IMG/VR virus record: IMGVR_UViG_3300034283_000433
Span: 1-64,000 of that record
Length of the DNA: 64,000 nt
Reading direction: 5' to 3' (one strand)
From: a virus
Made by a program: the position numbers and the translations under genes. Each line of letters opens with the position of its first letter. The first letter of the stretch is position 1. Shown one piece after another: positions 24,825 through 50,094 of the stretch. The notes under the pieces are model-generated. The model was not told the DNA's origin. It ran no database searches and worked only from the letters and a program-made list of their open reading frames with translations.

Positions 24825-27800
24825 TTATCTATTATTTAAAGGTTGTTGTATTCCTAATTCTACGTAGTACAAATCTACTAAACTTTGCGGATTTACTGGC
24901 TTTAAGTTTAATTCAACCCAGCTACCTTTCAAAGGCCTTCCGTTTAGTAATCCTCCTGGGCTTAACATATCTCTCTTAAATGCAGCGTGATACTTGTCGT
25001 CTTTAATTCTAAAGTCAGACTGTACAAGCTGTGATTGTTGAGCCATATTAGTATTTACATCCCCTTGCGTAGGAGCAACCCAAGTAGTATTGCCTAATGT
25101 AGTTATAGTATTGTAATGCTTTTTGATGCTTTGACCATCATTGAAAATAATCTTTATACTAGGGCTTTTCTGTTCTTCATAGAAGTTAGCATAGTTAGTA
25201 GTATTGTTATGCACCCATAGCTCCCCATTTTTCCAAGTAATAATCAAATTACCAACAGAGTCTATCCACTCTGGGAAGTAGTCATAAAACGCACTATATG
25301 CGTTTCTAGTCTCAGAGAATCCAAATGTATAGTCTGGCAGTACAGTTGAGCTACCTTGCATAGCTGTAATGTACTCCTCTTCAAATAAGTCATACACTCC
25401 TAAAATCTTTGCATACCCTCCGTTACCAAACTTATCTGGGTAGTCTGTTTTTTGATATTTAGCTATCTTATCTGTAAAGAAAAAGTGTGCTTTATATAAT
25501 TCAGTTATAGAAGTAATTCCATCATTAGACAGTCTAATCTGAGCACCTAAAACAGGGTCTATAAAATAGTCAGCAATAGGCGAAGAAGCTAAAGAACAAT
25601 ACTGCTCTCCTATGCCATACTCACCTTTATAGTACTGAATCTTATTTACGATTTCTGAGCTTTGAGAAACAACGCTATTACCATCTGCTGTTTGTAGCAT
25701 ATTTTGAAGGATAGGTACTACTCCACACGCTCTATTTTGGAATACTCTTAGTTGATTATCCCTTAATTTAAATCTTTGTATATCACCCTTTTGTCTGTCG
25801 TACTCATCAAGATTTTCTGGTAAAAACTTATTTGTATTGTTTATACTTGTACTACTTTGATACTCAAGAGAATATCTTATAGTCGTTGGAAAATATGTTT
25901 CTCTTGCATACTCATCTTCTACAAATGTTCTTCCATTACCATCTAGCTTAGACTCATACTTATCAGATATAGACATATCTATAATTGAATGTCCGTTACT
26001 TCTTAGTCTTGAATAAACATCGCCTTTATACAAATAGTATTGAGCAGCCTGTGCAGGTGTAGCTTGACCAGGGTTCTGTATTACTTGATTTTTAAGAGAA
26101 CCTTCGTGTACTAAATTTCCGTTAGCATCTGTTATGATATTGTAATTTTCTCCAAACTCATAATAAACTTGGTCGCTATAAGACGAATTGGTAAATGGCT
26201 TATACGCTTCAATATAGTATATAACAGAGTTGTTTGGGTTTGTAGGCCAAGTACTCATAAATGCACTTGTATTATCGTACTGAATCTTAATCCAATAACC
26301 TGGTGTTTTAGTTCCGTCTGTACTCTCTGTTAATACTTCAATAATTGGAACTTCATAGCCATTATAGGTAGATTGTCCAAAAGCTCCGTGTATGATGACT
26401 CTATCCCCTTTTGTATATTCATAAATAGGGAATCCAGCATTATTCTGATTATAAGCCAATATGTTCATATAAGCATAAGTAGAATCCTTATAAACGAAAT
26501 TTGTAGTAGCCCACACAAAATTGCTATTTGTCAAGTTCTTTGTTCTTACAAATGAAAATGATTTAGCCCAAGATGGTGGCTTATGAGAAATATTAAATTT
26601 AATTCTAGGGTATGGTATTATTGGGTCTGTACCTAAGCCTAAAGTTGTAACAGATAAGCTAGGTGTCATAAACCTCATTTCTGTATTTGTAACAACTCCG
26701 TTTGTAACACCAAACTCATCAAAGTATACTAAGCCAAACTTGTATAAAGAAGAATGCTTGTAAATTGAAATATTGGTATCTGGTATAGCATCAGGATTAA
26801 TCAACGTTACAGTAGCTGTACCTGTTACAGACCATTGTAATGTATTGGCTGTAAATGGATAAACTATAGTAAATCCATTTGTTATAGCATCTGTATTTAA
26901 TTCCGACTCGTTGCCTATTATACCAGAAAAATAAGTAATAACATCATTTATTGTTTTCCCAGTCGTTACTGTATAAGAATAAGAATAGTTCTTAGTAGTA
27001 GCAACAGGGATTCCTCCAGTACCTGTTAAATAAAACAATCTAACTGTCATCGCTATTATGTCACCAACGGCAGGTATACCAGTGAATGTAAATGACCACG
27101 CTGAACCATTACTTTTACCTGTAACAACTAAAGGATTAGAAGGCTTTACAGTATCTATAGTCTTAGATATAGAAAGTGTTTCACTAAAAGTATTACCCTC
27201 TGTAATTCCTCCGTAAGCTAAAACATTACCATTTAATAACTCCTGTGTATTTGCTTTTTTAGGCACATAATCAAACAGCTGTGTGCTATCAGATAATCCG
27301 ACAATAGAATACAATTGGTCGTTATAGAAATTATAAACGCTAGTTGAATTATCTGGAATAGAGTTCTTTGCCTTGTCTATAACAGTAGCAAGCATTCTAT
27401 CAGAGAATACAGATGCTACACTCTCTCTTACAGATATTTCAATCTTAGTTACATCTCTCTGCCCTGTCTTGTAAAATACGTTTATTGCGTTGTTTACCGC
27501 AGCTGTAGATAGCGTTATATCCGTAACTCCTGGAGGAGGCACAAGCGCACTCCAAGGGCCCCAAGTAGATTTTGTATCATCTCTATAAACCCATCTATAA
27601 CTAAATTGGAATAACTTACTAGCTAGGTTATTTGAAGTAGAACTAGGCTCTGTAGCATAGTTGCATACAGGAGCTAATCCAGGTACTTTTCTACTAACAG
27701 TCAGGTATTCTTTTTTCCAGTTACTTCCGTATACATTAGCAGCTATTCTATTAGTTCCTGCTGGTCTATCTAAACCAGTATCCTTTATGTTTATTTTCAT

Positions 27801-28070
27801 TGGTCTATTCTTCCTGTCTGTCCAATGAAGCACATCTCCGTCTTGTTCTGTTCTATATAATATATTTACTGAGGCTACTGGGAACTTTGGGTCAAACTCA
27901 AATAAGTCCTCTTGGCTGTCTATAAAAGAAATAAGCAAAGGCTCAATAACGTTTGTCTTAAGATTGTATACATATATGCCATTATAACCAGCAGAGTTGT
28001 AATTAAAATAAAACACCCTGTGCTTTAATTCGTCATAATGAGACCCTATGCATTGATTGGTAGAAGCCAT
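24825..28070 (-). CDS. Muzzle/tail stabilisation-like protein, lacks the usual N-terminal segment
   Basis: 1081 aa. It starts MASTNQCIGSHYDELKHRVF and continues FNYNSAGYNGIYVYN and GDVLHWTDRKNRPMKINI, matching what I recall of the large stabilisation (muzzle) protein of crAss-like phages, which forms the distal tail plug. In that family a short segment with an MNxDxxxxxxPxxxxxxAxN pattern precedes this point; here the segment is missing, but an isolated 63-aa protein at 32484-32675 matches it. The rest is beta-rich without enzyme motifs. The gene follows the adhesin cassette at 28-32 kb. Confidence 0.7.
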   Translation of the reverse strand: MASTNQCIGSHYDELKHRVFYFNYNSAGYNGIYVYNLKTNVIEPLLISFIDSQEDLFEFDPKFPVASVNILYRTEQDGDVLHWTDRKNRPMKINIKDTGLDRPAGTNRIAANVYGSNWKKEYLTVSRKVPGLAPVCNYATEPSSTSNNLASKLFQFSYRWVYRDDTKSTWGPWSALVPPPGVTDITLSTAAVNNAINVFYKTGQRDVTKIEISVRESVASVFSDRMLATVIDKAKNSIPDNSTSVYNFYNDQLYSIVGLSDSTQLFDYVPKKANTQELLNGNVLAYGGITEGNTFSETLSISKTIDTVKPSNPLVVTGKSNGSAWSFTFTGIPAVGDIIAMTVRLFYLTGTGGIPVATTKNYSYSYTVTTGKTINDVITYFSGIIGNESELNTDAITNGFTIVYPFTANTLQWSVTGTATVTLINPDAIPDTNISIYKHSSLYKFGLVYFDEFGVTNGVVTNTEMRFMTPSLSVTTLGLGTDPIIPYPRIKFNISHKPPSWAKSFSFVRTKNLTNSNFVWATTNFVYKDSTYAYMNILAYNQNNAGFPIYEYTKGDRVIIHGAFGQSTYNGYEVPIIEVLTESTDGTKTPGYWIKIQYDNTSAFMSTWPTNPNNSVIYYIEAYKPFTNSSYSDQVYYEFGENYNIITDANGNLVHEGSLKNQVIQNPGQATPAQAAQYYLYKGDVYSRLRSNGHSIIDMSISDKYESKLDGNGRTFVEDEYARETYFPTTIRYSLEYQSSTSINNTNKFLPENLDEYDRQKGDIQRFKLRDNQLRVFQNRACGVVPILQNMLQTADGNSVVSQSSEIVNKIQYYKGEYGIGEQYCSLASSPIADYFIDPVLGAQIRLSNDGITSITELYKAHFFFTDKIAKYQKTDYPDKFGNGGYAKILGVYDLFEEEYITAMQGSSTVLPDYTFGFSETRNAYSAFYDYFPEWIDSVGNLIITWKNGELWVHNNTTNYANFYEEQKSPSIKIIFNDGQSIKKHYNTITTLGNTTWVAPTQGDVNTNMAQQSQLVQSDFRIKDDKYHAAFKRDMLSPGGLLNGRPLKGSWVELNLKPVNPQSLVDLYYVELGIQQPLNNR

Positions 28071-48266: not shown

Positions 48267-48325
48267 TGCGCGCGCGTATGTACGCGTGTGTATGTGTGCG
48301 CGTGTACGTGTATGCGCACGTATGC
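48267..48325. other. 59-nt perfect pyrimidine/purine alternating tract (Z-DNA-prone)
   Basis: Every step from 48267 to 48325 alternates pyrimidine and purine, mostly CG and TG/CA steps with some TA, while surrounding DNA is AT-rich and non-alternating. Such tracts favour left-handed Z-DNA under negative supercoiling. It also contains a GTGCGC/GCGCAC hairpin. Confidence 0.7.
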
Positions 48326-48521
48326 CTGCGCGCTATATCCTTATACCACAGCTGTAAAAAATCTTTTAACAAAACCTTAACTAGGCTGTTGATTGCGGTA
48401 TCAAAACTATTTTGCAGTTTTACAATGTCAACGGGGACGACCTAATGACACAGCTCTTTTAACGTTTCTTTAACACTCTTGCATACCTGACCTCAATAAG
48501 TCACTTAGTCACTGCAAGTAT

Positions 48522-48758
48522 GGTCTCGCTAGGCTTTCCGCTGTAAAGCGTTGTAGCAATCACGAAGAGTGAGAGAGACCCATCCGATGGTTATGATGGT
48601 GCATAAACTCAACCCTGCTTTTGGTTTCCCTAGGACTATAGGCAGTAAAACTAGGCGACGAAATGGTTCAGTTCCATAGTAGTTGAAGATGGCGCGTTTA
48701 AAAACGTTAGCTGTTCGGAGCGTTGGGTGACAGCAATGCCCTCTAAAATAACGATGTC
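48522..48758 (+). ncRNA. Candidate structured leader RNA ending at the ribozyme cleavage site
   Basis: Possible stems: GGTCTC (48522-48527) with GAGACC (48575-48580) enclosing CGCT-GTAA-AGCG (GNRA-type loop, 48539-48550) and TCAC/GTGA (48560-48572); CCAT/ATGG at 48580-48590; and an H-type pseudoknot from AACG 48703-48706 with CGTT 48721-48724 and GCTGT 48710-48714 with ACAGC 48730-48734. There is no coding frame. Hammerhead cleavage after C48758 would give it a defined 3' end. The 5' end and promoter are unknown. Confidence 0.4.
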
Positions 48759-48806
48759 CGCGGATAAATTACTCCGCGCTGATGAGCTGCAGAACAGCGA
48801 AACATT
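48753..48806 (+). ncRNA. Type III hammerhead ribozyme
   Basis: All conserved parts are present in order: cleavage triplet GTC (48756-48758); stem I CGCGGA/TCCGCG (48759-48764 and 48773-48778, 8-nt loop); CTGATGA core (48779-48785); stem II GCTG/CAGC (48786-48789 and 48795-48798, loop CAGAA); GAAA (48799-48802); stem III closing with five pairs (48753-48757 with 48802-48806, one G-U). Cleavage is expected after C48758, leaving the downstream mRNA a 5'-hydroxyl end 62 nt before the first ATG. An apparent ATG at 48782 lies inside the catalytic core and is not a start. Confidence 0.93.
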
Positions 48807-48820
48807 TAAACCTAAATACT

Positions 48821-49087
48821 ATGAAAGCTACAATTAACGGCACAATGCTAAACGAAGACAGATTTGTTATTGAATTAAACGCTGAACAAATGGAAGACCT
48901 AGCTGTCTACTACTTGCTAGAGTCTTGCAAGTGGGACGCTAAGAATATCAAGTACGATGGCAATGATATGAGACAAAGAGATACCTACAATAGATTAGCT
49001 GACAAGTACTACACAATGTACAAATCAATCAAGGCTATACAAGGTAAGGAAGAACCAATAGGTGTTGAATATATCCTAGAAAATTAA
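48821..49087 (+). CDS. First protein of the right arm, unknown
   Basis: 88 aa from ATG 48821; the longer frame from 48782 starts inside the ribozyme. MKATINGTMLNEDRFVIELN is followed by a helical part with paired Tyr and acidic residues. No family recognised. Being first after the ribozyme, it is probably among the earliest expressed proteins. Confidence 0.7.
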   Translation: MKATINGTMLNEDRFVIELNAEQMEDLAVYYLLESCKWDAKNIKYDGNDMRQRDTYNRLADKYYTMYKSIKAIQGKEEPIGVEYILEN

Positions 49088-49095
49088 TTAACCAC

Positions 49096-49112
49096 GGGGG
49101 TTAACAGCCCCC
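49096..49112 (+). promoter_or_regulatory. Leader hairpin before DUF932 gene
   Basis: GGGGG (49096-49100) pairs with CCCCC (49108-49112), extended inward by U-G and U-A pairs, loop AAC. Same hairpin style recurs at 50075-50094, immediately after the DUF932 gene. Confidence 0.55.
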
Positions 49113-49140: not shown

Positions 49141-50064
49141 ATGAGACAACAAACAGCACAACAAATGATGAACGATGCATCTAGATTCAGCGCACGCACA
49201 ACCGCAGACGCGGAGCGCAAGATTGACAACATCCTAGAGAACAGCAGACAAGACAATGTCTTCGTTGAGTCCTCTATTATTAGCTTATCTGAAATCACGG
49301 GAATGGACACGCGCAAAGGCCTAGAGCAGGCAGTTATTTGTGAGGGTCAAATCGTTAACGTGGTATCTTCTAGCTATGGCCACCTAGATAACCGCAAGTT
49401 CTACTACGAAGCAGAGTCCAAGCTAATTGATTCTGACATCTACTACAAACAGCGCTCTATCAACAAAGATAACCGCTCATTCGCTGTAGATTATGTACTT
49501 GCTGATGACCGCTACAAGATATGCGTAAAGGGTGAAGAGGATGTACTACGTCCGATGTTACGATTCGTAAACTCTTACGATGGTAGCTGTAAGACTAGCG
49601 GCTCCTTTGGATTTTGGCGCAAAGTATGTGACAATGGACTACACGTTGCACATACTGAGATTGGATTCAGCGTTAAGCACCGCGGTAATATAGCAGACGT
49701 GGTAATGCCTAAGATGGACGAGATTGTATCTAAGTTTATGGACAACGAGTTCTATACATTAAAACGCAAGTTTGAAGTATTGGCAGAGCGCCCCGTATAC
49801 AACCTAGACGGATATGTAAAAGCTACAGCTAAATCATTAGGGCTGTTCAAGTACGAAGCTAGTGACAAGAACCCCGAGCCTAGCGCTAACGCTCGTTTTG
49901 TTCTAGATGTAATCAACCGCGAGACTAGACAATTGAATACACAACCTAACCAATGGATTGTATACAACGCGTTCAACGAATTGTTACACGGCAAGTTAAA
50001 GAAGACCTTTGACCAACAGCGTAACATTGACGAGCAATTGTTTGAGACTATCTATAATTCATAA
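49141..50064 (+). CDS. DUF932 family protein
   Basis: 307 aa. EGQIVNVVSSSYGHLDNRKF, then SFGFWRKVCDNGLHVAHTEI and SVKHRGNIADVVMPKMDEIV, are the hallmarks of DUF932, a family common on phages and plasmids with no proven biochemical role; a link to DNA recombination or plasmid maintenance has been proposed. The longest gene of the early block and bracketed by two similar GC hairpins, so it may be controlled separately. Codons are GC-richer than in the tiny neighbours. Confidence 0.85.
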   Translation: MRQQTAQQMMNDASRFSARTTADAERKIDNILENSRQDNVFVESSIISLSEITGMDTRKGLEQAVICEGQIVNVVSSSYGHLDNRKFYYEAESKLIDSDIYYKQRSINKDNRSFAVDYVLADDRYKICVKGEEDVLRPMLRFVNSYDGSCKTSGSFGFWRKVCDNGLHVAHTEIGFSVKHRGNIADVVMPKMDEIVSKFMDNEFYTLKRKFEVLAERPVYNLDGYVKATAKSLGLFKYEASDKNPEPSANARFVLDVINRETRQLNTQPNQWIVYNAFNELLHGKLKKTFDQQRNIDEQLFETIYNS

Positions 50065-50074
50065 TCATAACCAC

Positions 50075-50094
50075 GGGGGCGGGCAACTGCCCCC
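50075..50094 (+). promoter_or_regulatory. Leader hairpin after DUF932 gene
   Basis: GGGGGC (50075-50080) pairs with GCCCCC (50089-50094) around an 8-nt loop, preceded by CCAC as in the hairpin at 49096. No T-run follows, so it is an mRNA-processing or stabilising hairpin rather than a terminator. Confidence 0.55.

Follow-up and report, generated by a model that had tools for sequence, protein, structure and literature searches.

Hammerhead ribozymes (HHRs) were reported at the head of the first early transcript of haloviruses HF1 and HF2, where the mapped 5' end of the RNA and the cut are no more than 3 nt apart (Perreault et al. 2011, PMC3088659). The same study described HHRs flanking prophage genes, demonstrated the cleavage of several of them and suggested processing into single-gene mRNAs; in the prophage clusters, cleavage was observed in vitro for three and in E. 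coli for one (PMC3088659). A 2026 preprint described hammerhead-interspersed VIPR vrRNA guide-RNA arrays in phages, a phage RNA interspersed with hammerheads as in the Bacteroidota phages considered here (PMC13142463). The products of VIPR are guide RNAs, however, whereas those of the Bacteroidota-phage HHRs would be mRNAs. In rRNA leaders, promoter, hairpin (boxB) and boxA follow each other, and the leader is then processed by RNases. The phage leader described below resembles them in its promoter, hairpin, boxA-like motif and predicted processing, but is predicted to be cut by a ribozyme and not by an RNase.

The HHR of this work lies in a window of 64,000 nt, the whole stretch of DNA that was analysed and part of a 68,322-base virus record. 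An earlier note on this DNA had claimed a complete type III hammerhead at a divergent region, placed to cut a leader off a 5'-hydroxyl mRNA, and had considered such use of a phage HHR as leader processor unknown so far. It is right on the object and its likely action and overstates the novelty, HF1/HF2 being a precedent (PMC3088659). The HHphage ribozyme there directly precedes the first ORF in a polycistronic early phage transcript (PMC3088659), and the one in the window is placed likewise. In contrast to the window, HF1/HF2 are archaeal viruses, and their hammerhead is a core variant separated by 13 nt from the start codon. Intercistronic ribozymes were not described for them. The prophage clusters (C. 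scindens, A. caulinodans, A. tumefaciens ardA; PMC3088659) are alike in that several HHRs flank genes or short blocks; no type-position rule was stated for them, whereas the Bacteroidota phages show a type III/type I rule with fixed distances. Our search, mostly of non-subscription literature, retrieved no paper on this rule or on HHRs in Bacteroidota phages of this kind.

The hammerhead ahead of the right arm

The ribozyme and its parts were assigned as follows.

48753-48806, plus strand: type III hammerhead ribozyme, from Rfam RF00008 match, motif scan and covariation
48753-48757, plus strand: 5' strand of stem III, GAUGU, read from the sequence
48758, plus strand: C17, which ends the cleavage triplet GUC (NUH type)
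Between C48758 and C48759, plus strand: predicted cut, from the motif parts in order
48759-48764 and 48773-48778, plus strand: stem I, CGCGGA with UCCGCG, 6 bp
48779-48802, plus strand: catalytic core CUGAUGA, stem II with the conserved CAGAA loop, and GAAA
48779-48785, plus strand: the core stretch CUGAUGA, which fits CUGANGA
48786-48789 and 48795-48798, plus strand: stem II, GCUG with CAGC, 4 bp, loop CAGAA
48799-48802, plus strand: GAAA of the core, read from the sequence
48802-48806, plus strand: 3' strand of stem III, ACAUU, read from the sequence

All parts of the hammerhead claimed in the earlier note were found in order, and its three stems pair. The structure is open at stem III and has the A15.1-U16.1 and G10.1-C11.1 pairs. 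Stem III is weak, its 5 bp consisting of four Watson-Crick pairs and one G-U. The key bases named in that note, C48758 at the cleavage site and G48799 (G12), hold. It was also correct in dismissing the ATG at 48782 as a piece of the core: the frame stops at once in L002, and L004 and L005 have no equivalent ATG since their core reads CTGACGA.

The window HHR shares core, three stems and type III topology with RF00008 (Hammerhead_3), and this model aligned with 48753-48806 over its full length (1-54) at 38.6 bits, with E = 4.7e-7 on 361 nt and 8.4e-5 for the whole window against 4227 families. It differs from RF00008 in a short stem II with fixed CAGAA loop, a weak stem III and a score under the curated gathering score of 48.5 bits, which is a database cut-off and not a property of ribozymes. 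The Rfam check proposed in the earlier note thus produced the match, at a score that stays below the gathering score, as do the copies in the relatives and in Elemovirus (36.3 bits in the latter). Probably the low score is due to stem III having only 5 bp including one G-U, and a gathering-threshold Rfam scan consequently misses the window HHR. When both strands of the window were searched with a scanner for type I, II and III motifs, this was the single site, and 20 dinucleotide-shuffled windows gave none. Neither the motif scan nor Rfam at E up to 1 detected a further HHR in the window or elsewhere in the record; with its one HHR, the window does not hold a cluster of two or more. A plain folding program, which cannot score the hammerhead core, gave −14.4 kcal/mol for a slightly different pairing at the cut site versus −13.6 kcal/mol for the HHR fold.

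With the DUF932 gene, the second of the right arm, as query, we obtained 18 loci in viral contigs; the first-gene protein as search key yielded no relative in viral contigs. A type III HHR at the leader end before the first right-arm gene was present in L002/L076, L003, L004, L005, L007 and L088. DUF932 homologues in Flavobacteriaceae and Chitinophagales genomes had no HHR nearby, with the one exception of L215, which also carries a type III HHR at the leader end. This contig (CAIMDI010000011.1) is filed under Candidatus Taylorbacteria, has three hammerheads in all and encodes a DUF932 protein 76% identical to the homologues here; it is probably a mis-binned phage of Bacteroidota.

Among the relatives the stems of the type III HHR vary while core and CAGAA loop are constant; this loop II is kept in the homologues although stem II changes. 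Loops I and II may form a tertiary contact between stems I and II. In an alignment of six diverse type III members, cultured Elemovirus included, 96.9% of pair cells held standard pairs and 10 of 16 pairs showed compensatory double changes, with compensatory changes in all HHR stems. None of 500 shuffled controls matched the observed covariation, and pairing fell to 25-46% when partners were slid by 1-3 columns. At the level of sequence, 48753-48806 is confirmed as a genuine, complete type III HHR. We consider it likely that the element is active and cuts the early right-arm transcript during its synthesis.

Right-arm genes and the position of hammerheads in related phages

Downstream of the ribozyme, the right arm begins as follows.

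48821-49087, plus strand: 88-aa gene that opens the right (early) arm, with its ATG 62 nt past the predicted cut
49096-49112, plus strand: hairpin GGGGGTTAACAGCCCCC in the spacer separating gene 1 from the DUF932 gene; L002/L076 have a type I hammerhead here
49141-50064, plus strand: DUF932 gene, second of the arm, Pfam PF06067 at E 1.8e-14
50075-50094, plus strand: second similar hairpin, 3' of the DUF932 gene; L006/L007/L088 have a type I hammerhead here

No PHROG match was found for the 88-aa first gene. The right arm encodes an ERF recombinase, a PD-(D/E)XK nuclease, a DnaA C-terminal domain and a BT4734-like protein and is therefore the early/replication arm. The HHR precedes the first ORF of this arm in sense direction, a placement of the HF1/HF2 kind. 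Terminase and portal were nearest to those of Elemovirus, Cellulophaga phi38:1 and Maribacter phage Panino (27-32% identity), and a left-arm protein (window 24825-28070, minus strand) matched the crAss-phage muzzle families PF25731 and PF25729. Together with the right-arm matches, this identifies a podovirus-like phage of Bacteroidota. Its virion is probably partly crAss-like and its hosts are probably Flavobacteriia.

Cultured phages share the layout. BLAST with a 44-nt type III HHR returned 68 Elemovirus records, phages isolated on Flavobacterium sp. BAL314. Of these, MT497017 (vB_FspP_elemoA_7-9A; L313) was read completely. Its type III HHR is situated at the divergent region, about 190 nt past a TATATTTG element and 62 nt ahead of right-arm gene 1, with the predicted cut at L313 5000/5001; further along, two genes flank a type I HHR predicted to cut near L313 6836. 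The non-coding leader region of this genome also has four tiny annotated minus-strand ORFs (L313:4064-4917), which are probably gene-caller artefacts. The predicted site of leader removal claimed in the earlier note recurs: a position about 60 nt 5' of the start codon, at the end of a long leader, was seen in dozens of viral contigs as well as in cultured Elemovirus.

At least one HHR was present in 17 of the 18 DUF932 loci, and most relatives of the window had two to five. Between the following genes, relatives carry elements of the form GGTTAA-CTGANGA-stem II-CGAAA-hairpin-TH-TTAACC, which are type I HHRs, up to five per locus. In each of eight whole related records, every core match (22 in total) was on the same strand as the right arm. 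Two pattern scans extended these observations. The type III scan, in which only core and loop were fixed and stem pairing was not demanded (CTGANGAGNNNCAGAANNNCGAAAC), gave sites in which the NNN/NNN of stem II paired in 77 of 78 cases and which formed a complete type III in 73. The type I scan, fixed only in GGTTAACTGANGA...CGAAA, gave sites with, among the matches listed, a stem II of 4 bp or more in 121 (chance 2.3%) and, again among those listed, the matching TTAAYC strand then present in 129 of 136. Both site sets were picked by sequence pattern and many of the contigs are related, so that the counts, 78 distinct type III and at least 136 distinct type I sites, are not independent and describe these subfamilies only. 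An extra base after A9, nearly always U, occurred in 13 of 121 type I sites among the matches listed; such an extra-U core (CUGANGA-U-GG..CC-GAAA), with the base between A9 and stem II, is found at L080:4096, L083:2525, L215:1742, L076:5927 and others. Mixed type III/I/II hammerhead arrays around small genes were further noticed in aquatic phage contigs L013, L017, L022, L026, L051, L060 and L069.

The two types differ in their surroundings, as measured with a simple ORF caller on 60 type III and 173 type I sites. Type III sites had a median gap of 643 nt to the upstream ORF, at least 100 nt in 56/60, and lay between divergent genes in 28/60. In the type III pattern scan, the next ATG followed 58-72 nt past the cut in 44 of the 45 sites for which a downstream ORF was found, the typical start codon in viral contigs being about 61 nt past it. 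For type I, a same-strand ORF lay upstream in 153/173, with a median gap over all sites of −1 nt; the upstream stop codon frequently coincided with the TAA in stem I or with the core TGA, and the next ATG came at a median of 24 nt past the cut. In these subfamilies, the scans show a positional rule by which predicted type III HHRs end leaders and predicted type I HHRs sit on stop codons between genes. The full array of type III and type I was seen only in relatives, the window having no type I HHR. At 49096-49112 and 50075-50094, G/C hairpins AACCACGGGGG-loop-CCCCCACA stand in place of the relatives' type I HHRs. These hairpins after the first two right-arm genes are possibly a substitute 3'-end element.

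Leader RNA and alternative readings

Upstream of the cut, the following features were recognized.

48389-48414, plus strand: probable host-type (Bacteroidota) promoter, TTGATTGC ... TATTTTG, predicted for the window from its sequence
48420-48758, plus strand: leader RNA of about 340 nt to be released by the cut, with a predicted 5' end
48453-48475, plus strand: boxA-like GCTCTTTTAACG and TTTCTTTAACA, a putative assignment

The promoter element of Bacteroidota is TAnnTTTG. The window element is slightly off this consensus; at the same place it is intact in L002, L004, L005 and L007. Ahead of type III HHRs, the 9-mer with the strongest enrichment was TATGTTTGC, which was present in 13 of 44 leaders versus 0.2 in shuffles and fits TAnnTTTG. 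At 48268-48336, 5' of the right-arm promoter, the window has an alternating purine-pyrimidine tract (GCGCGCGTATGTACGCGTGTG...), also found in L002, L003 and L004; weak microRNA and snoRNA matches of this tract in Rfam are probably spurious.

The leader itself might be the main product, the HHR then setting the 3' end of a functional phage non-coding RNA with only a secondary effect on the mRNA. This is a possible, if doubtful, reading. The leaders of window and L076 are 100% identical over 48451-48800, whereas identity is 80-86% on the promoter side and 28-60% in gene 1. A second leader, class A, is unlike that of the window and takes the same place in ten related contigs, some of which have a type III HHR and some none (L003:3067-3357, L004:3072-3364, L080:3564-3845, L083:1916-2200 and others). 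It is about 280 nt long, has a TAnnTTTG promoter on one side and right-arm gene 1 on the other, and contains the blocks GTAGC..AAAG and GAGGGTATATAAAGA. With compensatory changes in 21 of its 57 predicted pairs, class A is a covarying structured RNA. On the other hand, the leaders split into several dissimilar sequence classes, and L080, L083 and L084 have class A but no type III HHR where it ends. Fold z-scores were near 0 for most leaders and about −2 for L004/L005 only, so that the claim of a structured leader is founded on covariation and not on energy. No Rfam family matched class A in the loci scanned, or the window leader. We also considered the leader as a VIPR guide array and rejected this, as no alternating GGY/NN repeats were seen by eye.

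Alternatively, hairpin and boxA would make the leader a nut-like antitermination site that loads the polymerase for the long early operon, to be removed later by the ribozyme as RNases remove rRNA leaders; we judge this unlikely. The boxA-like G[TC]TCTTT was found in 34% of 44 leaders, compared with 5% for shuffled sequences and 0% for the opposite strand, and in several relatives a hairpin lies ahead of it; the motif is short, however, and missing from most leaders. A boxA pattern had no match in three flavobacterial genomes, and the 16S gene was not located in the one searched. The boxA identity of the leader motif is a guess.

The earlier note spoke of a divergent switch region, and the location at a divergent control region would fit a gene switch, in which cleavage would be regulated by a metabolite, a protein or polymerase pausing instead of being constitutive. 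Such a role is unproven and appears improbable to us: no conserved sensor element was seen beside the ribozyme, and loop I and the CAGAA loop II, both conserved, look like a loop-loop contact of the constitutive kind. It is more improbable still that the HHR is a relic or a selfish repeat without function for the phage. The genomes of Cellulophaga phi38:1, Maribacter Panino and MW202828 do lack an HHR core and the window has no type I copies, but the compensatory stem changes, the invariant core and loop, the fixed distance to the start codon and the strand bias all speak against it. A chance match, suggested by the score under the curated Rfam cut-off, was rejected on the basis of the E-value over window and all families, the 20 shuffled windows, the covariation and the conservation in relatives.

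Proposed processing of the early transcript

Our preferred reading, an active HHR that cuts the early right-arm transcript while it is made, starts from the observed sequence, structure, covariation and position, with promoter and mRNA ends predicted. Against it speak the short stem III, the slightly different pairing favoured by the folding program at the cut site, the absence of type I HHRs from the window, the imperfect promoter element and the class A leaders of L080, L083 and L084 that end in no type III HHR. The Bacteroidota-type promoter near 48390-48414 would start the leader of about 340 nt, and once the polymerase has passed 48806 the RNA would fold and be cut after C48758. The leader would be released with a 2',3'-cyclic phosphate end. 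The ribozyme body would stay with the mRNA and form its 5' UTR; the 5'-hydroxyl would sit directly at the stem I hairpin, and the start codon would follow 62 nt further on. Besides parting it from the leader, the cut would probably stabilise the mRNA, since 5'-end-dependent decay acts poorly on a 5'-hydroxyl that is part of a terminal hairpin.

The type I HHRs at the stop codons of the relatives would have the complementary role. Their body would remain on the upstream mRNA in the form of 3'-terminal hairpins, and the next mRNA would start with a short, open 5' UTR. The circular permutation of the hammerhead sets which product retains the ribozyme, and this would account for type III at the head of operons and type I between genes. 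As judged from sequence, these phages probably cut their own messages in this way without enzymes.

A more general proposal, to which we give even chances, is that Bacteroidota phages possess a widespread two-part ribozyme code for mRNA ends, which cuts operons into single-gene messages. Type III would provide the first mRNA with a 5'-hydroxyl hairpin end and type I the upstream mRNA with a 3' hairpin end, the stop codon often being contained in stem I or the core of type I and the next gene receiving a short, clean 5' UTR. Early operons would be split without RNases or terminators. Such a system would have gone unseen because its members score below Rfam's cut-off.

The role of hammerheads in phages has been a question since their discovery there. 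With a positional rule, fixed distances and cultured Flavobacterium phages of the same layout, this role becomes directly testable. The related phages in addition point to a structured leader RNA without Rfam match. If true, the proposed code would amount to operon-scale mRNA processing by built-in ribozymes in bacteria.
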